Below the pieces are notes generated by a model that was given only the letters and a program-made list of their open reading frames with translations, did not search any database and was not told where the DNA came from. Shown piece after piece: positions 9,711 through 53,925 of a stretch of 64,000 nucleotides of DNA (within the stretch, counting starts at the first letter, position 1; the number at the start of each line of letters is the position of its first letter). A program made the translations under genes and the position numbers. The stretch comes from Diplonema papillatum (Eukaryota > Euglenozoa > Diplonemea > Diplonemida > Diplonemidae), in the NCBI GenBank assembly GCA_030068145.1, contig JAPJBO010000547.1, positions 62,001-126,000 on the forward strand, read 5' to 3'.

Positions 9711-10631
9711 CGACCCAAACCGCCAAAATTAAAAACGCCAAAATTACCGCTTATGCTGTACCTGCATCCCGTTCACTACCCGACTCCCAGCCTCAATGGT
9801 CAACCGGAGACCGTAATACACCGAACCTCTAAACCACAATAAACGCTAGAAGGGGCCGGGCGGGGGTAGGGGAACCACGCACCCACCCACACACACCCAC
9901 GCACAAAAGAAATAAACGAAGAAACCCGTGCTTACGACACGACTGCACAAGACGAGAGCGGTGCACAGTGTGTGCTGTCTGCGTTTGCGCACCTTCGCTC
10001 TCCGTGCCTCGGAGCCAGTCATCGCACGGGGATATCTTTCCGTCCGATTCAATCCTCCCTGTGGTCCGGATCTCACTGTACCGCTCTTCGTTCCTAATCC
10101 GTGCGACGTTATTTTCTTCTCCCCCGCCCCTGCTTCCCTTTTCTGGTGTTTTATTTCCCGTCTTGTCAGTCTTCCGGCACCATACAACACAACACCGGCA
10201 ACAACCACGAAAAAGGAACGAATCCCCGACCCAGCGGGCAACGAAGCGCCGCTGCTGACTGAGCCCGCCAGATCGTGCGGTTTGCCAGTCTCTGTACTTG
10301 TTTAAAAGAAAAGAAAACGTAGAAAACAAAAAGAGAAGCAATCAGCAAGAACGTCGGAAAAAAAAAAAAAAACAAAAAGCGAACTTTCACTCAAAAGAAA
10401 AAAAGCGACGGGTGGCTTCCGTTCCTCGTTCCTCCTCTCGTGCAGACACCACCACACCTCCCAGATTCCCCCAGCGCTAGTACAACGCTGGGCCTCAATC
10501 TTCCGGTGGAAGGGGGGGGAGAGGGACGTTGAAAGACCTCGCTTTCCACTGCACAACTACCACCCCCCCCGCGTCGTTTGTGTGTGTGTGCGTGACACAC
10601 ACACAGGCGCTACGTGTTCGGTAGGGGACCC
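9711..10631. other. Intergenic region upstream of the cyclase gene
   Basis: No gene is supported. The tract contains CA-rich and A-rich runs, a homopurine/homopyrimidine stretch near 10340-10400, and just before the cyclase start a GTGTGTGTGTGC..ACACACACAC inverted repeat (about 10578-10603) that could fold into a hairpin. The pyrimidine-rich sequence followed by ACACACAG at about 10604 could serve as a splice acceptor for the 5' end of the mRNA; this is inference. Confidence 0.4.
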
Positions 10632-13600
10632 ATGGCCGGCGTCGGGGATGTCCCGAGGCCGAAGGAGGGGTTCGTGGCGGGGTTGACGAGGGAGAGCAGC
10701 TCGGGGCTGACGGCGACGTCGGCGGCGACCGCGAGCGACAATGCGGACGGCCCGCCGGCGGGCGGCGGCAGCGCCGGCGGGCTGCAGCGGCAGGACTCGC
10801 GCAACACGTCGGGCGCAGAGTCGGCCCGGCTGGCCAACTGCCGAACCGGGTCGTGCGGCACGATGTTCCTCCCGCTGCGCAGCGACAGCGAGCGGGAGCT
10901 GAGCAACTGGGCGACGTCGACCGTCACCACCCGCCTCCTCTTCAACGCGAACGGCGCGCACACAAAGCCAACTCCCGGCCACAACGCCCGCCGGACGCAG
11001 ACCGTCGAAGCCCTGTCCAAAATCGACACCGCCGGGCTCTTCGCCTACGTCCCGAAGCTCCTCCTCAACATCCTCACGCAGCGGCCCAGCGCGCCTATCA
11101 CCGCCGACTCGGTGTCCCTCCGAGCGGCTACGCTGTTCATCGACGTGTGCGGGTTCACAAAAATTACCGAAGAGCTGAAAAGCTCGTCGGAGGGCATGCA
11201 CATCGCCGAGCACCTGAACAAGTTCTTCGCGCTGATGCTCGACATCGTCGAAGACTTCGACGGCGACGTGCTGCAGTTCAGCGGCGACGCCGTTCTGGCC
11301 GCGTGGTGCTGCAACTCGGAGGAGAGGATGGCGGGCGCCGCGATGCAAGCCGTCGCGTGCGCGAGCCGGCTGCTGGAGGTGACAGAGGTGCAGGTCATCC
11401 AGTTTTCGCAGCGCGAAGCGCCCGTGCGCCTGGGGGTGCACGTGGCCATGGGCGCGGGCGACATCGAGTTCCACATCGTCGGCGGCCTGCACGACAACTG
11501 GCGGCACACGACGCTCGGAAACGGCATCAAAGACTCGGTCGTTCTGTCCGACCTCGCCGACATGGACGAGCTGGTCGTGTCCTCATCAGCGAAGGCGCTT
11601 CTCGACGATTCGATCCCCCTCGCACCCATCCCCAACCACCCCGGCGCGCATAAGTACTTGCGGTATCCATTAGGCGCCTGCCAGCTCCCCGGGAGCAGCC
11701 GCTCGCCTTCGCTCGGCAGCAAGCCGGCGTCGCACCGGACGACGAGCCCCGGGGTTGACATGGGCGCCGCGTCTTCGAAGTCGCCGACGGCGTCCCACAC
11801 CAACGCCGCGAGCCACAACCAGAGCCAGGTCAGCCTGATCACGTCGCACAGCACGGTCATCTCCGCCTCTCCCGCCGCGACGAAGAAGAACACGGCGCTC
11901 GACTACATCCCGACAGACCCCGCGGTCGAAGAGGCCGTGAAGCTGAAGGTGTACTCTTTCCTCTTCGACACGATCCTGCACACGTGGGGCCGCGCGGGGG
12001 AGCTGCGCACGGTGTCGTCCATTTTCGTCCGGCTCATGAGCGACTCGGTCTCCATCAGCGGCCAGATGAAGCCCGCGCTGCAAGTCATCCAGTCGGAGCT
12101 CGCCGCCCGCGACGGGATCCTGAACAAGGTGCTCTACGACGACAAGGGCGTCACTTTTTTGATCCTCTTCGGCCTGCCTGGCCACGCCCACGAGGACGAC
12201 GCACTGCGCGCCGTCGCCTTCGCCTGGGCAGCGAGCACCAAGCTCGAGGGGGTTTGCCAGCTCGCAATGGGCATCAGCCGGTCGAAGGTGTACTGCGGGT
12301 ACTGTGGTTCGTCCGTGCGGCGGGAGTACACCGTGCTGGGGGACGGCGTCAACGTGTCGGCGCGGGTCATGCAGCACGCGGCGGGGGAGATGACGAAGCG
12401 GATGTCGCGGTGGGTGAGCAGCGAGGAGGAAGGCCGGTCCTCGTCGTCGTCCGGCGGGTCCCTCGGCCACGGGCACGGCGCGAACGCGATCTTCGCCGAC
12501 GAGGCCACGAAGGTCATCTGCGCGTCTTCCTTCCGGTTCGCCGGCGGGCACGACGTCCGCCTCAAGGGCAAGGCCATCGGAGCCCGCGTCTGGGAGGTCA
12601 CCGACGCGGGGAGCACTCACCGGCCCTTCATCAACGGGTCGCCTGGACCCCAGCCGGTGCAGATCATGGCGCGGAACAGGTCGCGGTCGACGGCGAGTCC
12701 TAGCTCGTCTGGCAGCCGCCTGCGGAAGCTGCCGAAGAATTACAGCCAGAGTCGGTCTCGGCACGAGTCGTCTGCGGACGAGCTGGCGGAGCTGGATGAG
12801 CTCGACGCGCTGTCGGGGTCGGAGGAGGACCACCAGGCGCGGAACATCCAGACGGGGCAGACCAGCATCTTCGGCCGCGACCCGCAAATCGCGGTGATCC
12901 TCGAGATCGTGACGCTGCTGCAGACGACGACGACGCAGACGACCGCCCTCAACAGCTCCGCGAACAGCGGGTCGTCGTTTACGTCGCCGAACGCCATCAC
13001 GTCAATCAACTCGGCCGAGCTGACCGGCGCGAATCCGTCCGCGCGCGTCATCTCCGTCATCGGAGACGCGGCCATGGGGAAGAGCATTCTGCTCCGCAAA
13101 GTCGCCGAGGATGCCGTCGCCCGTGGGGCCACCGTCCTCATGACGCAAGCGTCGCCGCTCGACAAGGAGTCAGGGTACTCCTGCATTGGCGCGCTGCTGT
13201 CCGGGTTCAGCCGGAAGCCGCTGGGGTGGATTTGCGCGGACATCGACGCGTCGAACCGGGACCTCCGCCCGCTGGTCAACACGTTGTTCCCCGCCCTTTC
13301 CCTGCGCGACACGGAGGTCACGCGGGGGCTGACCGACAGCGACCGCCACGCCGCTATCCAAGACATCGTCGTCGGCCTCTTCCGCCGGTCCTACGACACC
13401 AGCGCCGTCCTCCTCTGCGTCGACGACTCCCACTGGGCAGACGCCGAGTCACTCAGCATCGTGACCCACCTCCTCCGCACGCTGCCGACCGTCGGGGCTG
13501 TGGTGTCGCAGAGGGGGGAGTCCGGGAGCGTGTCGGAGTTCGTCGCGTACCGGATGCCGAAGCCCGAAAAAAAGCCGAAGGCCACGCCCACGTCGCCCAC

Positions 13601-28934: not shown

Positions 28935-31006
28935 GGGTGGTCCCCCCCCCCCCCAAACCTACGGATTTTCCTTTTACTCATGCCCCACCCCCCCGCGACC
29001 CCAATCTGACGAAAGGTTGCCATGCCCGCCGGTCACCAAATTGAAAGCAGGCAGCGGGAGTAGGAAGTTTTCTCATGCAAATACTGCAGGGAATAGTTTA
29101 CAAATCTTGAGTTTGTGCATACCACCAACGACTGTGACATGCTTTTTGCCGGACGCTCTGCATGTGTGACACAGCCAGATGAGAGGCAACGGCTCACTCA
29201 CTGTCAAAGGACAGTGCCACGAGTGCAACAACAATGCTCTGTGGTCTCGTTGTGTGAGCGTGCCCCCCGCTCCTCATTGCTCTTTGTCTTTTGCTTCTTT
29301 CACAAAAATACGTGCCTCCTCTTCTTCTCTTTTTTTTCTCTCTTTTTTTTCTTCTTCCTCTTCGTTCCTTTCAAAACAACATCATCTGATCCCGTCGTAT
29401 TGCCCCCTGTGTCTCCTCCCCCTGTCAGACTCACCCTCAGTTTATGCGTGCTTTGCGAGTTCGTCGGGTTTCCTTAAACTCGGGGGGGAAACCATCCCGC
29501 CTGTCTAAAAGTCACCTAGCGAACTCGGAAACAACCGGTTTCAATTCGAAACAGTCTGGAAACGATCCAGCACGTGCGACCTTTTCAACGGCTAATCTTC
29601 TTTTACTAGTACATTCGTACTGGAAGGGAACGTTTCCGAAACAACGGTGCACATGAAAAAATTAAACGAGGCAAACGAAAAGGGCTTATTGTTGGAAACC
29701 CAGCCAAGTCCAAGAATCATTCGCTTTCCCATTTTCATCATCGTCGGTCAGTTGATGCTGATCGTCTGTTGCTTCGTTTATCAGTGCAAGTGCGCGCCCC
29801 ATTTCGGAAATGTTCATGCAAAGGGTTCGTTGACCCTGCCCGTACATGGCGTGCATCTATGTGTTTGGCGCCTTTTAGTTTTGAATCTCCTAACAGTCCG
29901 ATGAGACTGTCACCTCACCCAGCGAGCTCTCACACACGCAACGCACAACTCACAACACGCAACGCAGCACGTACCTTGTACAATGTACCTTGTACAACGT
30001 ACCTTGTACAACGTACCCTGCCCAACGCTCAACTCAAACCATCGGCAACACCACAAAGAGACACAAGCTCTCTTTCTCCTTTCTCTTCTGACGTTTTCTA
30101 GACTGTTTCTTGTAGTAAGCGGTCGGTTTTTTGAAAGTTTTCTTTTATTTGCCTCTGCCTTTGCACCTTTTTTTTTGTTTCTTTTTTGTGGGCTCTTTTC
30201 TTCTCGCACGGGAAATCTTGATTCCGCACGCGAGCTTTTTTTCCCCCACCAAGGCTGCCTGTGGCTAAGCTTCCCTCATTCCTGTTCTTCGGTTTTCCAA
30301 CAGGAAACCGAAACAGAAAGTACTTTACATATTTCTTGTGTTGTTTCAAAGACTGCGAAAGGACGAAACCAAAAGAAAAGGAACCAGCCGTGTCCATTTA
30401 GCTCCGATTGCGCGCTTTTTTATCCCCAGGTTTGAAATAAAAATGCGAAGAAAGTCGTGCTGCTAATCTGCAAATAATCTGTGCATCGCCGGCGTCGCGG
30501 CTACCTTTTCGCATGTGATGGTCATGTTTCCGCCGCTTCAGCTCGTCTAGCTGTTGTCGACGTAGAACGCCCATGCCACATCCCTTAGGGCGCAATAAAC
30601 ACGTTCTAAACATCCGAACACCTCTTAGCACCTCACCGACTGAAGAATCTATAAACACTCAAACCACCCCCAAAAGGAAATACTCGCACCAACGAGTCGC
30701 AAGCTACACAAAAATCAGGCTTGCAAAGCCATCTTCGACCAGCTGATCCTGCTTCTCACAACGTAGTAGTCGTACCCTCTTAGCGCGTTAGGGAACATTC
30801 AATCCGCATTCAAGACGGAGGGAGCCCGTCCAACAGCTTTCATACAACACAAGAGCCGTGCCCCCTCTGCGCGCCGAAGAACACTCAATCCAGGTTGAAG
30901 ACGGGGGGGGGGGCCTCGGCCTTCACGCTCTGAATAGCTCGGCTCCTTGCGTCAAACCACTCTGAACCGCCTCTCTCTTTCTCTCTCCGTGCGAGAGAGG
31001 GCACCC
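28935..31006. other. Intergenic region upstream of the TUTase pair
   Basis: No gene is supported. It includes T-rich stretches (29280-29370), a threefold repeat of GTACCTTGTACAACGTACC type near 29974-30020, and two related phrases about 80 bp apart, AACATTCAATCCGCATTCAAGACGG at about 30794 and ACACTCAATCCAGGTTGAAGACGG at about 30882. A pyrimidine tract CTCTCTCTTTCTCTCTCC at about 30970-30988, followed by an AG 10-20 bp before the start codon, is a plausible mRNA 5'-end splice acceptor. Confidence 0.4.
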
Positions 31007-33838
31007 ATGGATGACATCGATGCCCTGTATGAGGAGGGGTTCTGTCTGCTATGCGACAAGGTGACGCCCGTGATCCTGGGGGACAGAACGCATTTCAAGT
31101 CCGCGCACATGCCCGACTTGGAGTCGATGAAGCAGTGGCACGAAGCAGGGTTCGTGAGAGGCACCGGGGCCAGTTGTAGCGACCTGGCTGCGTGGAGGAC
31201 GGTGATCGCAGCCGTGCAGGAGCAACGCATGACGGAGGAAGAGTTGACCTCCATCGGCGATCGCGTCAGTCTGCTGTCCGACTACATCGAGCAGCCGTTG
31301 ATGCTGGCGGGGCTCCCCATCCTGGGCGTGGCGTCCAAAGGCTCGTCCCTGATCGAAACCTGCATCTGCGAGGCTGCGGAGACCGCAGATAGCGCGGCGA
31401 AGAAGGGAAAGTGGAGCCGCCGAAGCCGGAAGGTCGTCGGCTACTTGTACACAGCAACCTTCCACAATTTTTCGCGCTTCGCCTGCCGGTTGCACGATGG
31501 GGTGCGTGAGCAGCTGCGCGCTGAGTATGACGTGACAGTGGCCACCGCCGTGCCGAACTTGGTGCTGTCAGGATACGACGAGAAGAAGGTGCGCCGCGCA
31601 GCGGTCGTGGTGAAGGAGTACTTCAAAGAGCAGTCTCCGCAGCAGCGGAGGAAAGTCGTGCCCCTGTTCGGGAGGCTGTTCGACAGCGAGGGCGACATCT
31701 TCGCCGCCGTCTGCGACCGAATCCGCAAGGTCAAGCCGTTGGCGGCCACCGTCAACTGGGACACACACAGCCCCGATCCATTGGTAATCGTCCGGAGGGC
31801 ACCCATCGCCGTCGATGAACAAGACCGCCCCACCGACCCCAACGCACCCCTCCCCACCCCCGTCCTCGAAGAGGACACAGACAGCCTCGATCCATTGGTA
31901 ACCGGCCGGAAAGCACCCGCCGCCAATGAACAAGACCGCCCGACCACCGTCCCCGAAGAATCCGACGATGACCTGCACAGCACCGAAGACCCCCCGCCAG
32001 CACTCAACGCTGCAACTGCGAAACCCGCCAAAACCACCAAACGCGGCAAACGCGGCAGCGACGGAAAAATCGTCAAGTTGACCTACGGACACCCGCCGAA
32101 ATCTCCGCAAACACCCCCCGCCGGCGACCCCCCCATTCAAGGTCAGTCGCCGCAAACCCCCCCCGCCGGCGACCCCTCCATTCAAGGTCAAAGCCTTGCT
32201 CGCCGGGGCCCTCGGCTCGTGCCGGAACAGCCGCACCTCGCCTTCGAATCCAGGCGGCTCCACAACGACGGCGTGACCTGGCTCAAGAAGAACAGGGCCT
32301 GCCGCGGGCTGCGGCGCGGCGGCGGCCGGCAATGTGCGGCGTTTGGCTCGTCGGCTGAGGTCGTCGGCGCCTTTTTGAGCCTGACCCGCGGGCTGCCGGC
32401 GACCCACCCCGCGCCGCACCTCAGGGAGCTGTGGGCCAACTGGAACGTCAGCGCGCGGCCGCACGTGCTCCGGCGCGCGGCGTTCGTCCAGCGCATCCTC
32501 GACTCCGCAGCCGAACGGGCCCCGGGGACGCATTGGGCGCTGTTCGCGGCGCAGGTGTGGGCCGAACGGCATGGCATCTCGGAGTTCTTGCCCCCTGCGG
32601 CCGTCGTGGTCATGTTCTGCTTCTTCCTCATCGACAAGCGACTCGCAGACCCGTTCGAGCTTTCCTCAGTCCCGGATGCTGCGGTCCCGTCCCTCCCGTA
32701 TCCTCCGGCGGGTCCCATCGACACGGAGAGTGACGCTTTCGTGCGGAGCTGCCGCGATGGGTTCGTCGGCTTCGTCGAGTTCTACTCCGACTTCGACTGG
32801 TCCGACCGGGTAGTGATGCTCACCCACCCGCCAGGGGAGAAGGAGTACTCGCTGCAGGACATTGCGCTGACGCGCGACGTCACGTTCGCGGCGCTGTATC
32901 ACCACAAACGGGGCAAGTTGCACCCGCCCGCCCACGCGCTGGCCGGCGTCCTCGACCCGTGCACGGGCCACAACCTCGCGTGCTCCGTCGCCGCACACCG
33001 ACTCGTGTACCTGAAGGCGGTCTTCGCGATGACCCGCGCCGCCCTCCAGACGAGCGGCGAAAACGTGCGCCGCCTCTTCCTCTCCGCGCCCCGCATGGCG
33101 TTTCACCAGCCGCCGCCCTACGAGTCCTTTGGGCTCACAAAGCCCGCCGCTGACGGCGACTGCGATTATGCCAAAATAGCCGTGAGCCGCTGCGCATATA
33201 TCGGCGACCAGGCAGTACCCGAGCAGTACGGGCTGGAAGCCGATCCGGAGCTCGTGCGTCTGTCTCTCGAGCAGTGCTTGCGCGAGCCAGTGGAGGGGTA
33301 CCCTCCGGGCGAATGGGGCTACGGAGGAGCGTTGCAGCAAGGACACCCGGCAGCGCCGTGGCAACAGCAGCGGCCGGCGTACAAGTCCGGCAAGGGGAGT
33401 TCGGGGCCCGCGGTTGCCGCTGCGTACGTGCGCAGCGGCCCCGAGCGAAGCCACACCGCCGGGTTCGGCGACACGGGAGGCAGACCACACGCTGAGCAGC
33501 CTTACGGGTACGGACGGCAGGTGGGGCAGCAGCCGGCTTCGTCGCTAGGCAGACAGCCTGGGCAGGGGTCGGGCGACTATGGGAGGGCCTACGGGGGGCT
33601 GCAGGCCGCCGGGCAACTTGGTGGCGGGGCCCCCGCATTAGCCCACGGCCAGCCGGGTGCGCGGCAGCGCGGCACGGCGGCGTACGCGGCCGGGCAGCCC
33701 TTCGACCGCTTCTCGTCGCCAAGCCATCCCCCCTACCAAGCGCTGCCCGTCCAACAGCACGCGGTGTACCATCAGCGGCACCACCACGAGCAGCAGCAGC
33801 AGCAGCATCTGCCGCATCTGCAACAGCACTTGCAGTAG
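31007..33838 (+). CDS. TUTase-like pseudoenzyme: C2H2 finger, catalytically dead nucleotidyltransferase fold, low-complexity tail
   Basis: This is the paralog of the intact terminal uridylyltransferase-like gene at 35967, by block similarity: an N-terminal zinc finger (C13, C16, H29, H34), a GS-type loop at 107-121, the helical palm segment WNVSARPHVLRRAAFVQRIL (479-498) against WDVSCRPEFGPRNSALLQKI in the paralog, then VVVMFCFFLID and VLDPCTGHNLA. In the active family the loop carries D-x-D and the palm a third Asp. Here these align with L-I-E (LIETCIC against DVDVSVC) and N480, so all three metal ligands are gone and it should not catalyse nucleotide addition. Low-complexity inserts with near-duplicate units (DPLV..RRAP..EQDRPT; SPQTPPAGDP) lie between residues about 250 and 400. 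The C-terminal 200 residues are Gly/Gln/His-rich. I chose the ATG at 31007, the first in frame after a pyrimidine tract. Possible roles are RNA binding or regulation of the active partner. Confidence 0.82.
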   Translation: MDDIDALYEEGFCLLCDKVTPVILGDRTHFKSAHMPDLESMKQWHEAGFVRGTGASCSDLAAWRTVIAAVQEQRMTEEELTSIGDRVSLLSDYIEQPLMLAGLPILGVASKGSSLIETCICEAAETADSAAKKGKWSRRSRKVVGYLYTATFHNFSRFACRLHDGVREQLRAEYDVTVATAVPNLVLSGYDEKKVRRAAVVVKEYFKEQSPQQRRKVVPLFGRLFDSEGDIFAAVCDRIRKVKPLAATVNWDTHSPDPLVIVRRAPIAVDEQDRPTDPNAPLPTPVLEEDTDSLDPLVTGRKAPAANEQDRPTTVPEESDDDLHSTEDPPPALNAATAKPAKTTKRGKRGSDGKIVKLTYGHPPKSPQTPPAGDPPIQGQSPQTPPAGDPSIQGQSLARRGPRLVPEQPHLAFESRRLHNDGVTWLKKNRACRGLRRGGGRQCAAFGSSAEVVGAFLSLTRGLPATHPAPHLRELWANWNVSARPHVLRRAAFVQRILDSAAERAPGTHWALFAAQVWAERHGISEFLPPAAVVVMFCFFLIDKRLADPFELSSVPDAAVPSLPYPPAGPIDTESDAFVRSCRDGFVGFVEFYSDFDWSDRVVMLTHPPGEKEYSLQDIALTRDVTFAALYHHKRGKLHPPAHALAGVLDPCTGHNLACSVAAHRLVYLKAVFAMTRAALQTSGENVRRLFLSAPRMAFHQPPPYESFGLTKPAADGDCDYAKIAVSRCAYIGDQAVPEQYGLEADPELVRLSLEQCLREPVEGYPPGEWGYGGALQQGHPAAPWQQQRPAYKSGKGSSGPAVAAAYVRSGPERSHTAGFGDTGGRPHAEQPYGYGRQVGQQPASSLGRQPGQGSGDYGRAYGGLQAAGQLGGGAPALAHGQPGARQRGTAAYAAGQPFDRFSSPSHPPYQALPVQQHAVYHQRHHHEQQQQQHLPHLQQHLQ

Positions 33839-34395
33839 CACTTGCAGATGCACGGGACCGCGCTTGAAGCCGCAGGCCGCCAGTTCTGCGGCGGCGGCCC
33901 TGCTGAGGTAGCCGCTTGACAACCACACGGGTGGCCAGAGCCTGCAGCCTTGAACTCACAGCTTTGGCCAGGCAACGTTTACCTGTTTCCTTTCTTGTTT
34001 GCGTTGGCGGTTTGTTGCTTCTCTCCGGTTCAAGGGGTTTGCGCGAACGGCATCTTTCGCCCTTTTTATTGCTGCTGGATTCAACTTCCCGGTGGCGGAG
34101 GCACCACGCGCTGGTCGTCGTTCTCAAAGCGTATCTTTGGCGACGACACGTTGCCTAGTCATGCGACGGACCAATCCCTGAACCGTCCCAAATGTCTGCC
34201 TGCACCGCTGCCAGGGTGTACAGTAAGCTGTGATACGTAAGCCTCCGCAGTCGTGAGCAACCAAAACGCGTGTGAATCCACACCGAGAAGCGGGTGTGAC
34301 ACCCGCTTTTTAAGCTCGAGCTTCAACTCCAGCTTCTGAGGCTGGACTCCGCCGTGTAGTCAACCATTCCTTGCAGTATTACCACCAAGGAAGAT
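33839..34395. other. Spacer between the TUTase paralogs, no gene seen
   Basis: No open frame is supported. A phrase GCGGGTGTGACACCCGC (about 34290-34306) forms a small perfect hairpin followed by T residues. It resembles a related phrase at about 42488 (GCAGGTGTGACACTCG), so it may belong to a dispersed repeat. Confidence 0.4.
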
Positions 34396-35880
34396 CAAAA
34401 GGCCCACCTGGTCCGGGCTCCTGGTGTTCCCCGACACTTCCCCGACACTTCCCCGAAGTTCCCCGAAGCCGAAAATTCCCCGAAACTCCCCGATACTCAG
34501 CCCGATTTTTGTGGGAAAAAGTGGGGCAGGTGTACGGGTTGGTAGTTGGGTGGCCAGGTCGGTGGATGGGTGAACAGGCGGGTAGTTGGGTACGGGTGGA
34601 TGGGCGGGCAAGTGGGTGAGCTGTGTACAGATGCGCAGGTAGGTGCTTTTGTATTTCGGACGCGGCTCTCTTGAGCCCCCGTCCGTGTTCCTCCTCTATT
34701 CCTCTTCGTTGGCCACCTCGATACACAGCTCGCAGGGCGTTTCTTATCATCGTGCGAGAGAACTCGGATGCATTTACCAACTGTATCTTGGACTCCTAGC
34801 CAGTTGTTGGGGCATTTAGCCATCATCTGGCTTCTGGTTTGCGGTCGCAAACGGTCGGTACCACGAGTTTGCCATTCTTATGTCAAACTCTTCAATTCCC
34901 TCCTGGGGTTTGGTTTGAAGATGTTTCACGGGTGTTGGCTCCAGCACCTTCGAACTCGGTCGCATTATTGATCGATTCCTGTATCCACGCCCGCCATCTC
35001 TTCCCACTTCTGACCATGCTAGCAGCCTCGTGTAAGCCGGGCAGACCCAGTTGTCTTCCGCCATCTGGCCCCAGCACCGCTCTTAAGATCAGTCGACGAC
35101 CATATGCAGGTGGGTGGGAGGCCCTGTTACTGCGAAGGCGTCGTTATCTCTCTGTCCCAGCCGCCATAGCCATCTTATCCTCGGCCAAGCATCGGCTATC
35201 GTGCCTCTCTTTTGATTATGAACCTTACTCCTCGCTCGGGTTGCCGTCTTCGACCGTAACCGCCTCTGGTGGTTTGGCTTAGAGTGCAAAGAACCTGTGG
35301 CGATACTCTGCATCTGCTCTCCTGGTGTCGTCGCCTTCTGCGGCGTTCTCGATGGCGGTGTTGGCGCCGGCATCCGCCGCTTCCCTTGTGGCGCTTTGGG
35401 TCGATGGTGGCGAGTCCTTACGCCGCCGCTTCGTTGCCAGCGGCCGTCCTAGTGTCGTCGCCTTCTGCGGCGTTCTCGATGGCGGTGCTGGCGCCGGCAT
35501 CCGCCGCTCCCTTGTGGCGCTTTGGGTCGATGGTGGCGAGTCCTTACGCCGCCGCTTCGTTGTCAGCAGCCGTCCTAGTGTCGTCGCCTTCTGCGGCGTT
35601 CTCGATGGCGGTGTTGGCGCCGGCATCCGCCGCTTCCTTTGTGGCGTCTCGGGGGTCGATGGTGGCGTCGGCTGCTTCTTCACCGGCGCTCGCAGCTTGC
35701 GTCTCTTCTGCTGTGGTCGTGCTCGGGTTGTTGCTGTGGGGCTTAGAACACAGGGCCGCTCTGGTGGGGCCCCTCCCCACCGGCTGCAGGGAAAGTGGCC
35801 GCCACAAAGGAAATTCCCCGAAATTCCCCGATACTCCCCGAAACTCCCCGATATTTTTATCTGGACCAGGTGGATAGGCG
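34396..35880. repeat. Repeat-rich unit bounded by CCACCTGGTCC / GGACCAGGTGG
   Basis: An 11-bp phrase CCACCTGGTCC near 34405 is matched by its complement GGACCAGGTGG at about 35864-35874. Just inside each end lies a run of CCCCGAAACTTC-like repeats (34432-34500 and 35810-35860) in direct orientation. The left half has drifting GGGTGGATGGGC repeats (34515-34620) and the right half the 126-bp minisatellite. A decayed mobile element is possible but the terminal match is short. Confidence 0.45.
35328..35680. repeat. 126-bp minisatellite, nearly three copies
   Basis: Units start at 35328, 35454 and 35580 with a 126-bp (42-codon) period. Each contains TCGTCGCCTTCTGCGGCGTTCTC and GGCGCCGGCATCCGCCGC. 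Both strands stay open across it in more than one frame. A minus-strand reading gives Lys/Arg/Pro-rich 42-residue repeats. I do not call it a gene. Confidence 0.9.
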
Positions 35881-35966
35881 AGTTGAAGCGACACCTACTG
35901 CAGAGGCCTGCTAAAATATTCGACCACCCCGGGTTAGGCTGACACTCGCTGTCGTTGGGAGGGGGA

Positions 35967-38900
35967 ATGCAAAAGGAAACTCTGGATTGGGCTAAGGTAC
36001 GCACTGCAAAGGAGACAATGGGGTACTGCACGATTTGCTACCCGCCTACGCAATACAAGTCGACAGAACATTTCAAGAAGCACGAAAAGCAAGCCGCGTG
36101 GTTGCGCAGTTGGGTATCTGTTCTGCAAGAGGAATGCGGCGGCCACGAAGTGGACGACAACTGCTGGCGCGACTTGCTGCACGGGGTGCACTCGTTGCGG
36201 CAAACGAAGGGCGAGCTGCAGGAGATCAAATGCGGAATGGACTGGCTGCAGTGGGTCACCGGTGAAAAGCTGATACCGTTCGGCAGCGTCATCGTCGGAA
36301 CGGCGGAGAAGCGGCAGACCGACAGAGACGGGAGCGACGTCGACGTGAGCGTGTGCGGAAGGACGTACCGGGGGGTCATTAATCCGCAGGTGCCGCTGCG
36401 ACTCCTCGAAGAAGCTGCTGACGTGAACGCATTTCAAAAAGACCAGAGCACGGTCATCGAAGCAGCCAACAAGACCGCTATCTTACATGCGTTCGAAAAG
36501 CTGAAAAAACTCGCCGATACTGACGTCGCTGATTTGACGCTCACGGTGACACCGACCGAAGCCGTCATTCTGGGCGATATGCAGAAACAAATCCTCAAGA
36601 AACTCCTGGTCAAGACCGAGCTGCTGGCCGATACAACAGTTCCGCTCTTGCGGATCATAGCCAAGACGACGTACGGCGACAAGCCGCTGCTTCTTTTCTC
36701 GTCCAACCAGCTTCGGGACTTATGTGCTAGTCACGTACCCCACCAAGCATGCCTACACCATTACGAGCGCACACTCCAGTTCGAAAACGAACTGGCCGCC
36801 GACGAAGCGTACAAGATCTGCTCTAGAATCGACAAAAAAGCGAAGCTGTATCTTCCGAGCGTGTCCAGATTGAGCTGGGACGTGTCGTGCAGGCCGGAGT
36901 TCGGCCCGAGAAACAGCGCGCTGCTGCAGAAAATCCTGGCGTCTGCGGGTCACCCGGCGATGACCGCCGCGTGCGCAATCAAGCGCTGGGGCAAGCAACA
37001 CGGCGTCGCCGACTCGAGGAAGGGCTTCCTCAGCTCATACGCGATGGTCCTCATGTTCTGCTTCTACCTGTACGACGCGGAGAACCTAGCTTTCGTCGAT
37101 CCGAGCACAGTCCCAGAGCCTTCGGAAACCAGCGTCATGGTACCGCCCCCGGAATTGACCGACGCCGAGCTGCGAACGTGCGCACGATACGTTTGCGGGT
37201 TCTTCGCTTACTATTCGAAATTCGACTGGAAAGCGAGAGCGGTCACTTTGAACCACCACCCTTCGACGGTCCTCTCGCCTCTGGACCTGGGTTTCACGCC
37301 CCAACGCACCTTCGAATCGCTGGCCGGCTCTCTGCGTGACCACGTGCACGGCCTGGTGACCATCATGGATCCATACGAAGAAGGCGTGAACGTCGCGCGC
37401 CGTATCAATTATTCAAAGCGGCTCTACATCACGGGTGTCCTGAAGTTCACGTACCTCGCCATCTGCAAGAGCGCCACCGGGCCGATGATGCAGCGGGTCT
37501 TCCCGCATCATCGGCCCGGTGGCGCTCTTGCAGATGGCGAGGTACGTGAACTTCACCTTGCATATGGGAGCCACCCCCCTTGGGGCTCGATTTCCCTTAA
37601 AGCACCAGCGCGAGCTCTTGCTATCGACTGCTCCGAAATGGCGCTATCCGCTGATGGGTACGTCGGTTGCTCTGAATGGCTCACGCTCGAGTCCGCGCCG
37701 CAACAATTCGAGAACATCCAGCACCTACTAAGTCAGCCCATGCTGCAAGTGCTCTTGCCGCAACTTCCCAAGACAACCCAGCACCACGTCAGCCATCACA
37801 ACAACCACCAACACCACCAGCACCACCAACATAACCAGCACCACCAACATAACCAACATCACCAACATCACCAGCACCACCAGCGTCACCAGCATCACCA
37901 ACATCAACAACATCAACAACAACACCAACAACACCAACAACACCAACAACACCAACAACACCAACAACACCAACAACACCAACAACACCAACAACACCAA
38001 CAACACCAACAACACCAACATAACCAACATCACCAACATCACCAGCACCACCAGCGTCACCAGCATCACCAACATCAACAACATCAACAACAACACCAAC
38101 AACACCAACAACACCAACAACACCAACAACACCAACAACACCAACAACACCAACAACACCAACAACACCAACAACACCAACAGCACCAACAACACCAACA
38201 ACACCAACAACACCAACAACACCAACAACACCAACAACACCAACAACACCAACAACACCAACAACACCAACAACACCAACAACACCAACAACACCAACAA
38301 CACCAACAACACCAACAACACCAACAACACCAACAACACCAACAACACCAACAACACCAACAACACCAACAACACCAACAACACCAACAACACCAACAAC
38401 ACCAACAACACCAACAACACCAACAACACCAACAACACCAACAACACCAACAACACCAACAACACCAACAACACCAACAACACCAACAACACCAACAACA
38501 CCAACAACACCAACATCACCAACATCACCAACATCACCAACATCACCAACATCACCAACAACACCAACAACACCAACAACACCAACAACACCAACAACAC
38601 CAACAACACCAACAACACCAACAACACCAACAACACCAACAACACCAACAACACCAACAACACCAACAACACCAACAACACCAACAACACCAACAACACC
38701 AACAACACCAACAACACCAACAACAACACCAACAACACCAACAACACCAACAACACCAACAACACCAACAACACCAACAACACCAACAACACCAACAACA
38801 CCAACAACACCAACAACACCAACAACACCAACAACACCAACATCACCAACATCACCAACATCACCAACATCACCAACATCACCAACAACACCAACAACAC

Positions 38901-39221
38901 CAACAACACCAACAACACCAACAACACCAACAACACCAACAACACCAACAACACCAACAACACCAACAGCACCAGCAACACCAGCAACACCACAATCACC
39001 ACAATCACCAGCATCACCAGCATCACCAGCACCACCAGCACCACCAACATATCCATCAGCAAAGCAGCAACCACCCGCATCAGCACTTCAACAACTACCA
39101 ACCCAACCCAATCAGCAACCCAAGCATTCTCACATACATTCACAATCCATCAAACCCAGCACCACCGTCAGCAGTACAGAACGCCAACCGTCTCACCACT
39201 CAGCACCTACGGTCCGCCTAG
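35967..39221 (+). CDS. Terminal uridylyltransferase / non-canonical poly(A) polymerase-like enzyme with giant Gln-His repeat tail
   Basis: A nucleotidyltransferase of the TUTase/TRF4 superfamily that adds nucleotides to RNA 3' ends. The N-terminus has a C2H2 finger (C21, C24, H35, H39), as in kinetoplastid RET1. The catalytic loop FGS (105-107) is followed by D124 and D126 (GSDVDVSV). A middle insertion of about 150 residues precedes the third Asp, D305, in LSWDVSC. The PAP-associated region (FGPRNSALLQ; LSSYAMVLMFCFYL; MDPYEEGVNVARRI near 467) completes the core, so the enzyme looks active. UTP versus ATP preference cannot be read with certainty. From about residue 608 to 1040 the chain is Gln/His repeats encoded by (CAACAACAC)n, then a short Ser/Pro/Thr tail. 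The ATG at 35967 is the first in frame. A perfect 51-bp inverted repeat interrupts the coding sequence at 37441-37555 without breaking the frame. The protein has 1084 residues if unspliced. Confidence 0.88.
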   Translation: MQKETLDWAKVRTAKETMGYCTICYPPTQYKSTEHFKKHEKQAAWLRSWVSVLQEECGGHEVDDNCWRDLLHGVHSLRQTKGELQEIKCGMDWLQWVTGEKLIPFGSVIVGTAEKRQTDRDGSDVDVSVCGRTYRGVINPQVPLRLLEEAADVNAFQKDQSTVIEAANKTAILHAFEKLKKLADTDVADLTLTVTPTEAVILGDMQKQILKKLLVKTELLADTTVPLLRIIAKTTYGDKPLLLFSSNQLRDLCASHVPHQACLHHYERTLQFENELAADEAYKICSRIDKKAKLYLPSVSRLSWDVSCRPEFGPRNSALLQKILASAGHPAMTAACAIKRWGKQHGVADSRKGFLSSYAMVLMFCFYLYDAENLAFVDPSTVPEPSETSVMVPPPELTDAELRTCARYVCGFFAYYSKFDWKARAVTLNHHPSTVLSPLDLGFTPQRTFESLAGSLRDHVHGLVTIMDPYEEGVNVARRINYSKRLYITGVLKFTYLAICKSATGPMMQRVFPHHRPGGALADGEVRELHLAYGSHPPWGSISLKAPARALAIDCSEMALSADGYVGCSEWLTLESAPQQFENIQHLLSQPMLQVLLPQLPKTTQHHVSHHNNHQHHQHHQHNQHHQHNQHHQHHQHHQRHQHHQHQQHQQQHQQHQQHQQHQQHQQHQQHQQHQQHQQHQQHQHNQHHQHHQHHQRHQHHQHQQHQQQHQQHQQHQQHQQHQQHQQHQQHQQHQQHQQHQQHQQHQQHQQHQQHQQHQQHQQHQQHQQHQQHQQHQQHQQHQQHQQHQQHQQHQQHQQHQQHQQHQQHQQHQQHQQHQQHQQHQQHQQHQQHQQHQQHQQHQQHQQHQHHQHHQHHQHHQHHQQHQQHQQHQQHQQHQQHQQHQQHQQHQQHQQHQQHQQHQQHQQHQQHQQHQQHQQQHQQHQQHQQHQQHQQHQQHQQHQQHQQHQQHQQHQQHQHHQHHQHHQHHQHHQQHQQHQQHQQHQQHQQHQQHQQHQQHQQHQQHQQHHNHHNHQHHQHHQHHQHHQHIHQQSSNHPHQHFNNYQPNPISNPSILTYIHNPSNPAPPSAVQNANRLTTQHLRSA
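37441..37555. repeat. Perfect 51-bp inverted repeat with 13-nt loop inside the TUTase frame
   Basis: The left arm 37441-37491 and right arm 37505-37555 appear exactly complementary, separated by AGCGGGTCTTCCC. The left arm encodes the conserved helix KFTYLAICKSATGPMM, which aligns with the paralog, so the left arm is the original and the right arm an inverted duplicate. It would form a very stable hairpin in the mRNA. Confidence 0.95.
37790..39060 (+). repeat. (CAACAACAC)n coding minisatellite with higher-order duplications
   Basis: Over 1.2 kb of nine-base units, reading Gln-Gln-His or Gln-His, all in frame. A block with CATAACCAACATCACC and CAGCGTCACC variants occurs at about 37849-37928 and again at 38019-38098 (period about 170). 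A CAACATCACC block occurs at about 38514-38560 and 38840-38887 (period about 326). Larger segments have therefore been duplicated in tandem as well as single units. Confidence 0.95.
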
Positions 39222-49745: not shown

Positions 49746-52700
49746 GGTGCCACGGCATGATTCGGCAGCCGCTGCTAAACGAAGTCACGAGTCAGTGAGC
49801 AGTACTTGCAGGATGCCTTCGGAATCCTTGCGGAAGAAAGGGGAAGAAGTACCGGCCGGGGGATAAAGACGTCACCTAAAAGAGTCTGCATCACGGCAAG
49901 CACTGCGTGCGACGGGTCGGGGGCGGCGAACAGCAGACAGCTACGGCTCCGGAAGGCCATCCACAGGATGGAACGCATCTGCAGCTACCTTGCGCAACGG
50001 CGCGGGCCGGAGGCAGTTCCGCATGAGGTATCCCGTTGCTGGCAGAACAGCAGGCGGCTGGCACAGGCGTGCATGAAAGATGGCCAAGGGACAGAAGGAT
50101 TCCCGGATCATGAGGAGGCGAAGCAGCTTCTCACGGCATTGCGGGAAGAGACGAGCAGGCTCGGAAAGGAAGGATCGGCGGCCAGGTTTACGAAATACCG
50201 AGACAAGCTGAACGAGAGGGCCGATGCGAGCAGACGATGTCTGACAACCATCTGCGCCGGACGCGCTGAGCCGTCGGGGGTGTTGCGAAAGGGGGCGGGA
50301 GTGACTGCAAATGTTGACGAGATGGACGAGGTGCTGAACACTGCGTGGGACCCTATCCTGCGTAAGTACAAGGACGGGCCAGAGCCGGAGTACGAGCCGT
50401 TTCGGGATCGGTTCCGGGATCACATCGGCCCACATATGATGGAAGCCGGAACAATCACGGGGGAGGAGCTGCGAATTCTGCTGAGGAAGAAGCCGAAGAA
50501 AAGCGCGTCAGGGGTGGATGGCTGGCGTATGGCTGAACTGCGGGAGTTGCCGCTCCCCCTGCTGAATGCACTTGCAGACGTCATGAACCTGGTCGAAGCA
50601 ACTGGAGACTGGCCGGCAAGCATGACAACTGCGCTGGTGTCGATGGTGCCGAAGGATGAGAGTCAAGACCCGCTGCACACAAGACCGATAACCGTCACAT
50701 CCGCCGTGTACCGCCTATGGGCCTGCCGCAGGCTGGCGGACATAGTACTGTGGCAAGAGGAATGGATCGAAGAAGGACAGAAAGGCTTTCGACCGGGTCA
50801 CCGGATCGAGGACGTCTTGATGGAAATTGGGCTCGAGATGGAGGACGCCTTGTTAGACGGGGAGCCGCTCTACGGTGTGGCGCTGGACTTCCGGAAATGC
50901 TTCGACATGGTCCCGCGAGAGATAGTACTGCGCTTAGCCGAGGACTTAGGATTGCACAATCGGGTTCTCAAGCCGCTGAGGGCTATCTACAGACTGCTCG
51001 CGAGACGCTTCAAGCTACCATTAGGGGTGGGCAGGGAGTTCAGTGTGACCAACGGTATCCTTCAAGGGTGCCCTGTATCCGTCATACTCATCAATGCCCT
51101 GCTGTCGGTAGTGATGAAAGCGGTCAAGAAAGAAGCGGAGGGTGTGAGTCCAAAGTCATACGCGGACGACGCCACACTGCTGTCCAGGCTGTCGGAGGCC
51201 GCCCTGCAAAAGGGAGTGGACGTAGTAGACGAGTTCTGCACACTCACCGGGATGGAGCTAAACCTCCAGAAGACGGTCGCGTTCTCGACGAGACGTAGGC
51301 ATCAGTCGACTCTCAAACTCCGCAGCGTGGATGCGCTGCTGCGGTTTAGCAAATCCGTCAAGTGCCTCGGGGTCCTAGTCTCGACGGCGAAGAATAGGAC
51401 GGAAAGGTCCGACTCGGAGAGGGTGGAGAAGGCGGCTGCCCTGGCGGAAGGCCTCCGCCATGCGCCGTTCCGGTACGAAAAGCGGGTCCGGATTGTGCAG
51501 TCGAATGTGCTACCGGCGGCGCTGTCAGGCTGCTCTTTCGCGCCGGTATCGAAGGTGGCGATGAAACGGCTGACGACGTCGGTGATGGGACTGATCTGGG
51601 GTGGATCCAACCCGAAGCGCGCGAGGGAGATGGTCCTAAACTTTCAGGAGAAGGGCCACCTGACGGATCCCGGTACATGCCTAGCATATAGGGTGACGAC
51701 AGCGTTTTACGCGGCGTGCGAGAGGTTGCCACGACTGCTGCCTCTGATGGAGAGCATCCGGGGAAGATACGCCGAGGGGGACCTACCCCTGGGGCCAGTT
51801 GGACTGGCGATGAGGAGCATGGAGGAGTGTGGACACGTATGGGGACCCGGGCCCCTGTCTCGCACGCTGAGGAATGGTGCAACATATGACCCGTTAGCCT
51901 CGGCACCTTCGAAGAGGGGACATGAAGTTAGGGCGGACTTGAGGGCGAAGACGTGGTCCCGACTGGTGGCGAGGCGGCCGGGATTTGAGGGCATACAGAG
52001 AGCCGACCTGGAGCGGACGAACACCTTCTGGAGGATGCGTGAATGTCCCGCGCACACCGCGAGGCTTATACGTGTAGCGTTGGCGGGGGGGGTGAACACG
52101 GCTGAGTACACGTCGCGGATGAGGCAGGCCGGAGCTGAGCCGCAGGCGCCCAGCTGCAAGCACTGTGGAAGCGGCGACACCGAGGACGAGAAACACGTAT
52201 TCTGGGACTGCGGAGCGTACTCGCACATACGGCGACGAGAGGCACATGCCGAGCTGATGGCAGCCAACCGGGCCGACTGGCCCAGATGCACGCTGGAACA
52301 CGGTGTGGTAGTACCCGAGAATGCCCAATTCTCGAGGCGGCTCCAGGAGATGATGGCTGAAATCCTTGCGGAACGGGCTGGGCTCGAAGCACGTGGCTGG
52401 GTGGCCAGGAACCCCACGACCCCCTGGTCGAGAGCGAATGCGATGCCTGCCGAGAAATTTGACCACCCCTTCGCGCGGATTGCCCCGGCATGGACGTGGG
52501 AGCGGAACAAGACCTGGGGACTACCGACGTTTTATGCGTTGGTAGCGTGGCTGTCGGACATGCAATGGACCGAGAACGGGCAGGCGTCAATGCTGGAGCT
52601 TGCGATCGACTTTGAACTCTTCTCGGGCCTCAGCATGCCGCTGCACGGGAATGCGCCGAAGGGGGTGAGAGAACGGGGAAACGTCCTGCGCTGCATGATG

Positions 52701-53925
52701 AGCGCGTTGGACAAGCTGGCGGCACAGCAAGGGCTGGGAAGCTGCATGAGAGGAGAGAGGGTGTGCCCGACGACGTCGCTGTCGTTCATGGGCATCACGG
52801 GGATATCGGGTATACGGCCCAGGCCACGCTTTCGCGAGGCACACACGGGGACGATACTTGAGGAACAAGTGAAAGGAAGCGATGTAGGGACGCAGTGCCC
52901 GACGTACCCTGACTGGACGATCGGGAGAGCGGCGAGGTGGGCCCTGCCTGCCCCACCACAACTGCACCCAGACCCCGTGCATATGCCGGGTGTCGGTATA
53001 GAGAAGGCACTCGTCACGTGCGCGACCCATCACAAAGGGAAGTGTGAGGCGTGCAGAGCACTCGTCCGAAGGGACGTTCCCACGGTAGAGATGTGCTGCC
53101 GGCACCATCACCACGCGAACGATGGGCAGCCGATCGCGGTGTGCACAGAGCACAGCACGACGAAGTGCGGCGAGTGCAAGACGGCGGCGGCGTGTTGCCG
53201 CAGCGGGCATCATGCCTGCCGCACGCATGGCAGAGGGACCTGCCAAGAGTGCAAAAGGCTCCCTACGCTGACGCAGAGGCGACCGGCGGCATGTTGCAGC
53301 CGCGGCCACCACCAGTCCAACAAGCCGAACGTCCAGTCAACCCCCGGACGCAACAAGAAGAAGAGGCCCTCCTCACCCACCCAGGTGGGTGTACAGCGGG
53401 AAACGCCAGTAGGAAAGCGAGCGGCGCGAGCGGCGCGAGCGCCGCTCGCGGCAACGAAAAAGGAGACGGCGACGACCGGACGGGCGACCAAGAGGCCGCC
53501 ACCAACGCCAGGAACCAGCGAACGACCAGCGCTGAAGAAGAGGGTGCTCGGCACCCCGAAGGAAGGCCTGATCGCCGGCCGCAAGCGGAAGAAGACGAAG
53601 GCGACCACACCCGACTCAGGGGTGCATCGAAGGAAGAAGAAGGTCCGAGGGCAAGCAGCTCTCAGAAACGACCGGGGACCACGGGCACACCAATGCCCTC
53701 GAAAGTGGAAAACGGGCACTCCTGCCTGCCCTCGTACTCGCCGACTCAGTCTTTGGAATCGCAAGAAAGCCAAACCCCGCTAGCTCCACAAATGCTCGAC
53801 CTTGACGACGCAATGGCAGGTGACGACGTCATCCGATAACCTGACTTTCAAGGCAGTGCATGCTAATCCATGTGGTTCATGTACTTAAAAGAACTCAATG
53901 CTAAACGAACATCGACGTGGGCGGC
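49746..53925 (+). mobile_element. LINE copy with nearly complete reverse transcriptase ORF, endonuclease missing
   Basis: The 5' part (49746-49775) carries GGTGCCACGGCATGATTCGG, similar to the start of the short elements at 42103 and 45984. The ORF joins it directly after the endonuclease region, so the endonuclease domain is deleted. The 3' end has the tail GTGCATGCTAATCCATGTGG (53856), then ACTTAAAAGAACTCAATGCT and ACGTGGGCGGC, without a poly(A). Target-site duplications are not obvious. The element lies about 155 bp past the presumed 5' splice site of the SNase gene, in the same orientation. Confidence 0.85.
49779..53783 (+). CDS. LINE reverse transcriptase with CCHC knuckle and Cys/His-rich triple-repeat C-terminus (frameshifted near its end)
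   Basis: The open frame starts after a TAA at 49776-49778 and has no credible ATG at its start, because the N-terminal endonuclease part is missing. RT blocks in order: GVDGWRMAEL near 50515, ITVTSAVYRLWACRRL near 50690, VALDFRKCFDMVP near 50880, TNGILQGCPVSVILINAL near 51050, SYADDATLL near 51156. The thumb is followed by a CCHC knuckle (CKHCGSG..HVFWDC, about 52157-52213). A long linker leads to a Cys/His-rich region (about 53010-53310) with three units of the pattern C..H...KC..C, CC..H(H). A Lys/Arg-rich tail follows. Against the copy at 46083-47290 a single T is missing (GAAGGTCCG against GAAGGTTCCG, at about 53644). This shifts the last 45 codons, so the protein ends in an unrelated stretch at 53783. 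Confidence 0.88.
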   Translation, partial: TKSRVSEQYLQDAFGILAEERGRSTGRGIKTSPKRVCITASTACDGSGAANSRQLRLRKAIHRMERICSYLAQRRGPEAVPHEVSRCWQNSRRLAQACMKDGQGTEGFPDHEEAKQLLTALREETSRLGKEGSAARFTKYRDKLNERADASRRCLTTICAGRAEPSGVLRKGAGVTANVDEMDEVLNTAWDPILRKYKDGPEPEYEPFRDRFRDHIGPHMMEAGTITGEELRILLRKKPKKSASGVDGWRMAELRELPLPLLNALADVMNLVEATGDWPASMTTALVSMVPKDESQDPLHTRPITVTSAVYRLWACRRLADIVLWQEEWIEEGQKGFRPGHRIEDVLMEIGLEMEDALLDGEPLYGVALDFRKCFDMVPREIVLRLAEDLGLHNRVLKPLRAIYRLLARRFKLPLGVGREFSVTNGILQGCPVSVILINALLSVVMKAVKKEAEGVSPKSYADDATLLSRLSEAALQKGVDVVDEFCTLTGMELNLQKTVAFSTRRRHQSTLKLRSVDALLRFSKSVKCLGVLVSTAKNRTERSDSERVEKAAALAEGLRHAPFRYEKRVRIVQSNVLPAALSGCSFAPVSKVAMKRLTTSVMGLIWGGSNPKRAREMVLNFQEKGHLTDPGTCLAYRVTTAFYAACERLPRLLPLMESIRGRYAEGDLPLGPVGLAMRSMEECGHVWGPGPLSRTLRNGATYDPLASAPSKRGHEVRADLRAKTWSRLVARRPGFEGIQRADLERTNTFWRMRECPAHTARLIRVALAGGVNTAEYTSRMRQAGAEPQAPSCKHCGSGDTEDEKHVFWDCGAYSHIRRREAHAELMAANRADWPRCTLEHGVVVPENAQFSRRLQEMMAEILAERAGLEARGWVARNPTTPWSRANAMPAEKFDHPFARIAPAWTWERNKTWGLPTFYALVAWLSDMQWTENGQASMLELAIDFELFSGLSMPLHGNAPKGVRERGNVLRCMMSALDKLAAQQGLGSCMRGERVCPTTSLSFMGITGISGIRPRPRFREAHTGTILEEQVKGSDVGTQCPTYPDWTIGRAARWALPAPPQLHPDPVHMPGVGIEKALVTCATHHKGKCEACRALVRRDVPTVEMCCRHHHHANDGQPIAVCTEHSTTKCGECKTAAACCRSGHHACRTHGRGTCQECKRLPTLTQRRPAACCSRGHHQSNKPNVQSTPGRNKKKRPSSPTQVGVQRETPVGKRAARAARAPLAATKKETATTGRATKRPPPTPGTSERPALKKRVLGTPKEGLIAGRKRKKTKATTPDSGVHRRKKKVRGQAALRNDRGPRAHQCPRKWKTGTPACPRTRRLSLWNRKKAKPR

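Follow-up and report, generated by a model that had tools for sequence, protein, structure and literature searches.

The upstream member of a tandem gene pair in Diplonema papillatum, here called Up, is probably a non-catalytic paralog of the adjoining RET1-type TUTase, Act, and would have been retained most likely for a regulatory or RNA-binding role. Both genes lie on the + strand of the window, the 64,000-nucleotide stretch of contig JAPJBO010000547.1 that was analyzed, and all features below refer to this strand. Up (31007..33838) is a single ORF of 943 aa encoding a putative TUTase-like pseudoenzyme, and Act (35967..39221) is an ORF for a TUTase with an intact triad, with another in-frame ATG further in, at 36018. 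The gap between them is 2128 bp; the original prediction of same-orientation paralogs about 2.1 kb apart, each with an N-terminal C2H2 finger, was thus borne out by the ORFs and their translations. A DNA search found Up in single copy, its low-complexity end excepted, while an Rfam scan of the window gave 0 matches and the viral and prokaryotic contigs searched contained no relatives. In D. papillatum, as many as 100 genes are likely transcribed together (PMC10161547), which makes the adjacency of Up and Act weak evidence for a complex.

We compared Act with known TUTases. Among solved structures, it matched RET1 (5hzd, 3.7e-18) ahead of RET2 (2b4v, 2.1e-15) and TUT4 (2ikf, 2.9e-14). Its PAP_assoc match (8.2e-4, 20 bits) fell just under the Pfam cut-off of 22.6, and Act does not have the strongest PAP_assoc match in the genome, another paralog, C98/L005, scoring better (2e-13 vs 8.2e-4). 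Alignment placed metal ligands 1 and 2 of Act at D124-V-D126 (36336..36344) and the base-stacking Tyr of TUTases in L355-S-S-Y358 (LSSY; 37029..37040), and both the PDB match and the alignments placed ligand 3 at D305 (36879..36881). The predicted retention of all three aspartates was thereby confirmed. Indeed, G106-S107, D124-V-D126 and D305 match the superfamily signature hG[G/S]-x-Dh[D/E]h with a third Asp, although the x16 spacing from G-S to DxD is longer than the quoted 9-13 (PMC5485530). Judged by its sequence, Act is a TUTase of the RET1 type with an intact triad and a putative specificity for UTP.

Up also found its best solved-structure match in RET1 (5hzd, E 0.0012, over residues 478-609), gave no match in Pfam, and had Act as its top match genome-wide, self aside (35%, 4.4e-21). 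The motifs and residue number given for it in the original prediction, LIETCIC, WNVSARP and N480, are correct in the translation, where LIETCIC lies at 115-121 and WNVSARP at 479-485. The PDB match and the alignments place N480, within W479-N480-V-S (32441..32452), at the third ligand, so that the D to N loss at this site can be regarded as secure, and an alignment of 12 C-lobes places P529-P530-A531 (32591..32599) where intact TUTases have S-S-Y. In this alignment, Up retains 9 of the 20 columns that are invariant in five intact paralogs; the Lys, N-S and S-S-Y positions are lost, and the C-lobe scaffold positions are kept. Alignments against Act point to L115-I116-E117 (31349..31357) as the most likely site of the lost D-x-D: D124 paired with L115, and D126 with E117, in all nine alignment parameter sets, and this register ranked 1 of 105 in all three matrices. 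MAFFT alignments of the two proteins were left out of the register analysis; MAFFT misplaces the N-lobe of Up against Act because of the insert in Up.

The two proteins share most of their architecture. The finger of Up consists of C13, C16, H29 and H34 (31043..31108; C-x2-C-x12-H-x4-H) and that of Act of C21, C24, H35 and H39 (36027..36083), both read from the translations. Finger and helix together aligned with z 7.9 against shuffles and were collinear through residue 111, the C-lobes aligned with z 35.5, and the C-terminal extensions with z 6.3, a score reached by 0 of 500 shuffles. The N-lobe alone (Up 93-230 vs Act 93-235) gave z 0.1, with 212 of 500 shuffles scoring as well, and the claim that Up keeps the surrounding helices there was not upheld; this lobe is unrecognisable by sequence, so that a retained nucleotidyltransferase fold in it is at most putative. 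AlphaFold2 runs from two-row alignments gave pLDDT values of 32.5 and 32.7 for the two proteins. Where RET1 and RET2 have a middle domain, Up carries a Pro-rich insert (residues 256-450; 31772..32356; 15% Pro), which from its composition is probably disordered and which contains a 45-bp repeat at 32105-32190. Up ends in a G/Q/A/P-rich tail (residues 766-943; 33302..33835; G 0.17, Q 0.16, A 0.13, P 0.11), and Act in a low-complexity Q/H tail (37773..39218) encoded by a 9-bp minisatellite, CAACAACAC, with about 139 copies over 37799-39049.

In a tree built from the C-lobes of 12 paralogs of this one genome, Up, Act and a third protein, L002, formed a clade (98/98.8). Act and L002 grouped together within it (91/88) with Up outside, L002 being flagged as a long branch, and AU tests gave p values of 0.175 for Up with Act, a grouping thereby not rejected, and 0.104 for Up with L002. 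The terminal branches measured 0.11 for Act, 1.46 for Up and 1.61 for L002. L002, encoded on another contig, likewise lacks the triad and is thus a second dead relative in the clade, so that one or two losses of catalysis would have occurred alongside Act, an enzyme that has evolved slowly.

The active site of Up decayed while its frame stayed open, suggesting that Up is probably a helper and not an enzyme; its catalytic inactivity, its expression and a regulatory role are what we infer. Within one C2H2-TUTase clade, Act would have kept its three aspartates and changed little, and Up would have lost metal-binding and nucleotide-binding residues, acquired the long Pro-rich insert and the G/Q-rich tail, and remained an open ORF. 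Up might then pair with Act through its C-lobe, its finger and the shared C-terminal extension, and might steer or stabilise uridine addition at RNA 3' ends. Such direct pairing is offered as a tentative hypothesis, on the doubtful side of even. Activation of Act by Up in a hetero-complex would be a fair analogy, and RET1 is reported to oligomerize (PMC5485530). It is quite possible, at little short of an even chance, that Up is instead a dead TUTase reused alone and without contact with Act; a granule protein that binds RNA would be one example. Its long low-complexity tail and Pro-rich insert, its branch of 1.46 against 0.11 for Act, an N-lobe past recognition, and the triad-less proteins on other contigs (L002 and the PAP-like set described below) would all suit such reuse, whereas the finger and C-lobe of Up are kept, and the C-terminal extension that it has in common with Act is without a detectable match between Act and L002 or L005. 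A local alignment of Up and L002 also extends into the start of the extension region.

We also asked how the frame of Up would behave under neutrality. Neutral evolution of the 312-codon C-lobe was simulated in 200 runs per divergence level (0.4, 0.5, 0.6 and 0.8 substitutions per site), and at every level 0 of the 200 remained stop-free. Furthermore, the true frame had the highest codon log-odds over the entire Up gene and in all four of its pieces, and GC3 was 0.81. Neutral decay since the divergence is thus unlikely, and the open frame together with codon use suggests that Up has been retained under selection. That Up is an unexpressed copy, or a pseudogene on which selection has relaxed, a finding that by the original prediction would refute it, is improbable, although a very recent death of Up after long constraint is conceivable: the fast branch and the weak codon bias of the insert (0.000) and tail (-0.018) do lean that way, but 943 codons are open, no neutral C-lobe run stayed open at comparable identity, and the codon bias follows the true frame.

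There is likewise little chance that the gene model of the Up N-lobe is wrong, through introns or merged genes, with an intact DxD residing in another exon. About 41% of D. papillatum genes have introns (PMC10161547), and the N-lobe similarity is weak; however, residues 1-260 have the highest true-frame log-odds of all pieces (0.212), the finger and helix are collinear with Act to residue 111, and N480 stays lost regardless.

The register of the N-lobe was less uniform against other paralogs. With L002, residue 128 was best, followed by 127, in all three matrices, while 115 ranked 9, 17 and 19, and L005 and the further paralog L004 gave inconsistent answers. A G[ST]-x5-20-[DE]-x-[DE] motif was absent from the whole of Up, and every register examined breaks the triad (N480 with L115/E117, or with D127/A129 by another register). 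At least two of the three ligands are thus gone in the registers examined, and all three are likely lost. Since the N-lobe is undetectable alone and L002 favours another register, the claim that all three ligands were lost with the fold kept is only partly shown: the paralogy, the broken active site, N480 and the best register against Act stand, whereas the preference of L002 for 128/127 and the N-lobe comparison leave the rest tentative. The insert also has DxD motifs, at 290 and 320, which were rejected as a catalytic pair, as no G[ST] motif lies upstream. D175 (YDVTV) was also rejected as a kept first ligand; against Act it ranked 74, 57 and 69 of 105, and in five of nine alignments it paired with Act D189, far past the DxD. 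Against L004, residue 175 ranked 4 of 105 in two of three matrices, which speaks against this rejection. That Up is still an enzyme, using E117, or D127/D175 in another register, or other chemistry, is most improbable, for although the register is uncertain, with L002 favouring 128/127 and L004 ranking residue 175 as above, and the signature permits E at its second position (PMC5485530), each register examined misses a ligand, and the third position is N480. Up has also lost the conserved K and S-S-Y, and D175 fares poorly against Act, the nearest relative of Up.

Trypanosome RET1, a mitochondrial TUTase (PDB 5hzd, 5i49, 5ido), is the best solved match of both Act and Up, and has an N-terminal C2H2 finger, an inserted middle domain and an NTD/CTD bi-domain (PMC5485530). 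In contrast to RET1, Up is devoid of the third ligand as well as of the Lys and the SSY, and the composition of the annotated starts of Up and Act shows no mitochondrial signal, so that the suggested mitochondrial site is not supported by these N-termini: the first 30 residues contain 2 K/R and 7 D/E in Up, and 4 K/R and 3 D/E in Act. The 20 in-frame codons 5' of the Up ATG (30947-31006) contain a TTG, at 30947, and lack an ATG; this stretch would read as basic if translated, which speaks the other way. Gray et al. 2025 (PMC12699882) used Pfam profiles to choose the Diplonema proteins DIPPA_04001 and DIPPA_34584 from the mitoproteome and proposed them as candidate TUTases of U-appendage editing in mitochondria; the words "pseudoenzyme" and "inactive" do not occur in the main text of that paper. 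The enzymes of this editing are candidates and unproven, and Up and Act make a taggable, testable pair, tagging being reportedly practised in D. papillatum (PMC12699882).

Dead nucleotidyltransferase folds are known in several settings. In TUT4/TUT7, the N-terminal nucleotidyltransferase domain is inactive, without the three catalytic carboxylates, and the half of TUT4 that contains it interacts with Lin28 and pre-let-7; there a single polypeptide holds both the dead domain and the active module, whereas Up is a separate neighbouring gene (PMC6240794). The NF45-NF90 DZF heterodimer likewise consists of nucleotidyltransferase-fold pseudoenzymes, which pair with each other, but both of its partners are dead, unlike Up and Act (PMC11952958). 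The RNase III pairs and RESC pseudoenzymes of kinetoplastid editing show dead paralogs serving euglenozoan RNA processing as partners or as a scaffold, although their enzyme folds differ from those of Up and Act, and passages of that source name no TUTase pseudoenzyme (PMC12936278). Literature searches combining pseudoenzyme, terminal nucleotidyltransferase and heterodimer, or Paradiplonema and terminal uridylyltransferase, found nothing. Up would be a stand-alone dead TUTase encoded beside its live sibling.

Up is possibly one among many pseudo-transferases. We consider it an unlikely, speculative extension that RNA 3'-end tailing here draws on a large set of dead terminal nucleotidyltransferases, which would select RNAs as partners or adaptors of a small number of active enzymes; Up and Act would then form a tandem pair of the prozyme type. 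If the triad-less PAP-like paralogs are real and expressed, a family of non-catalytic factors would have arisen in the lineage from enzymes that tail RNA. Eight paralogs in the genome have a readable intact triad, up to ten further PAP-like (PAP/TRF4-like) paralogs are without one, and the C2H2-TUTase clade contains at least two members without the triad, Up and L002.

We compared the active sites of two TUTase-like genes that lie on the + strand of the window, an upstream ORF of 943 aa at 31007-33838 and a downstream ORF at 35967-39221, spaced by 2128 bp. The downstream protein retains D124, D126 and D305, the three catalytic Asp, together with LSSY, and among solved structures matched RET1 (3.7e-18), RET2 (2.1e-15) and TUT4 (2.9e-14). 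The upstream protein had no match in Pfam, and among solved structures it matched RET1 sequences only (E 0.0012); its closest match genome-wide, itself excluded, was the downstream gene (35%, 4.4e-21). Pairwise alignment of the two proteins gave z 35.5 for the C-lobe and z 7.9 for the finger plus helix. The original prediction of a tandem pair with one broken and one intact active site was essentially right.

In the C-lobe, the third ligand place of the upstream protein is N480. Over 20 columns invariant in five intact paralogs (the downstream protein, L005, L004, L028 and L038), the upstream protein retains nine, namely S, W, L, F, Y, F, W and D-P, and has lost the D, the G and N-S-L of the next helix, the K, S-S-Y, a P and the Y of DPY. 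The conserved C-lobe Lys has a role in TUTases. What the triad and the Tyr do is described in PMC5485530. For the N-lobe DxD pair, L115 and E117 faced the downstream Asp residues in 9/9 alignment settings, and this register ranked first of 105 with all three matrices. With L002, a second degenerate paralog, as the reference, residue 128 was best and 127 next (3/3 matrices) while 115 ranked 9, 17 and 19; with L005, residue 115 ranked 6, 5 and 11; and with L004 it ranked 28, 13 and 6, and residue 175 ranked 4, 4 and 40. A scan of the whole upstream protein found no G[ST]-x5-20-[DE]-x-[DE]. The upstream N-lobe by itself was no more similar to the downstream one than shuffled sequence (z 0.1, 212/500 shuffles as good), and the register therefore depends on this region being collinear with the finger plus helix. 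Of the predicted loss of all three ligands, the third is secure, whereas the first two are probable, short of proof, as the register varies with the reference. Likewise, the predicted retention of the fold is supported by sequence for the finger and C-lobe, but not for the N-lobe; in AlphaFold2 models built from two-row alignments, mean pLDDT was too low for use (32.5 upstream, 32.7 downstream).

L002 (G000, contig C127, 105362-107524) is a C2H2-TUTase carrying the finger, FGS-x9-D-I-A and W-E-I-S. It lacks an intact triad, because D-I-A and W-E-I-S stand at the ligand places; it retains 12/20 of the invariant columns, and its PAP_assoc score (21.5 bits) is slightly below the cut-off. There is no in-frame ATG ahead of its finger, and an upstream exon is therefore likely. 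A fragment at C127:113371 is 64% identical to L002 and contains two stops. In a C-lobe tree of 12 paralogs, the tandem pair and L002 formed one clade (98/98.8), with end branches of 0.11 (downstream), 1.46 (upstream) and 1.61 (L002). Within it, the downstream gene grouped with L002 (91/88) and not with its neighbour, but the AU test rejected neither the tandem genes as a pair (p 0.175) nor the upstream gene with L002 (p 0.104), so that one or two losses of catalysis are both compatible.

We then considered whether the upstream gene is alive. When substitutions were simulated neutrally on the downstream C-lobe (312 codons, 200 runs per level), no run escaped a stop at 0.4, 0.5, 0.6 or 0.8 substitutions per site (0/200 each), levels over which identity fell from 46 to 25%, and 1/200, 1/200 and 13/200 did so at 0.3, 0.2 and 0.1. 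The true frame had the highest codon log-odds of six, for the whole gene and in 4/4 pieces, with values near zero in the insert (0.000) and tail (-0.018), and GC3 was 0.81 versus 0.57 in a single intergenic control. The gene is single copy at the DNA level, its low-complexity end excepted, in the 271.4 Mb (2910 contigs) searched; the published D. papillatum genome is reported as 280.3 Mb in 6181 contigs (PMC10161547). Directly 5' of its ATG lie a pyrimidine tract and then AG, which would suit spliced-leader addition.

On these sequence comparisons, the upstream gene is best read as a retained non-catalytic TUTase paralog, which would probably be regulatory. That it pairs with the downstream enzyme is possible, if on the doubtful side. 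A C-terminal extension common to both (downstream 515-592, upstream 690-770; z 6.3, 0/500 shuffles) may be a contact region; the downstream extension was undetected in L002 (z 0.6) and L005 (z 0.5), although the local alignment of the upstream protein with L002 continues into the beginning of this region. Dead nucleotidyltransferase domains are known from TUT4/7 (PMC6240794) and NF45-NF90 (PMC11952958), and dead partners from kinetoplastid editing (PMC12936278). The titles and abstract beginnings searched, a scope excluding subscription literature and supplements, described no diplonemid TUTase pseudoenzyme. As for the suggested mitochondrial location, neither N-terminus as annotated suggests import, because the first 30 residues hold 2 K/R versus 7 D/E upstream and 4 versus 3 downstream (composition only); in frame ahead of the upstream start lies a basic stretch that contains no ATG. 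Mitochondrial TUTase candidates reported for D. papillatum are DIPPA_04001 and DIPPA_34584 (PMC12699882).

The downstream protein ends in a Q/H tail of roughly 480 residues, encoded in frame by a 9-bp minisatellite, CAACAACAC, of about 139 copies (37799-39049, 1.25 kb), and the gap between the genes holds a 126-bp tandem repeat of 2.7 copies (35320-35667). Elsewhere in the window lie a large ORF at 10614-16469 that encodes adenylate/guanylate cyclase and AAA_16 domains, a reverse-transcriptase ORF (49806-53783; RVT_1, 1e-20), and two adjoining ORFs matching the Nicastrin small and large lobes (56895-59259), probably exons of a single gene.

A PAP_assoc profile search of the genome gave 17 matches, 13 above the cut-off, led by C98/C2808 (L005), C874 and C142; the downstream gene was absent from the 17 listed. 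Intact triads were readable in the downstream gene, L005, L004, L034, L043, L028, L038 and L041, a count that, like that of the loci without a triad described below, is left incomplete by partial or unexamined matches at C495, C129, C234, C431, C569 and others. L005 is a RET1-like protein, 100% identical on C98 and C2808, and N-terminal fragments of it (82-91% identity) recur on C98, C2808 and C329.

Finally, the odd member L042 gave 15 genome matches. Nine loci from this search, L042 included, were aligned with L044 from the PAP_assoc search and with the controls L034 (also among the L042 matches) and L043, leaving out C46, C306, C529, C497 and the second C759 piece. As read, 0/10 of these PAP/TRF4-like loci retain the triad; both controls, themselves relatives of the ten, keep all three Asp. 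The third position is N in L042 (C81; Trf4, 3nyb, 3.9e-7), L037 (C157; 3nyb, 5.9e-6), L062 (C47), L040 (C759; PSP1 domain, 1.9e-17) and L068 (C1519), K in L065 (C717) and L044 (C35), R in L061 (C304) and E in L066 (C470), the last being the weakest case with a D-to-E change alone; it has no clear reading in L067 (C112), where G-T-D occupies the DxD place. The DxD part was readable in eight of the ten and intact in L068 alone. Seven carry [TS]PLS...LW-x-R after the C-lobe and two a weaker form (by eye), while the L068 frame stops ahead of that place; three have poly-Q runs. From their sequences, the ten may form a family of dead PAP-like proteins. PAM2 motifs bind PABP, and the N-terminal part of L037 has two LNPxAxxF stretches resembling them, of which one matches Pfam PAM2 weakly (0.011, short of the cut-off).
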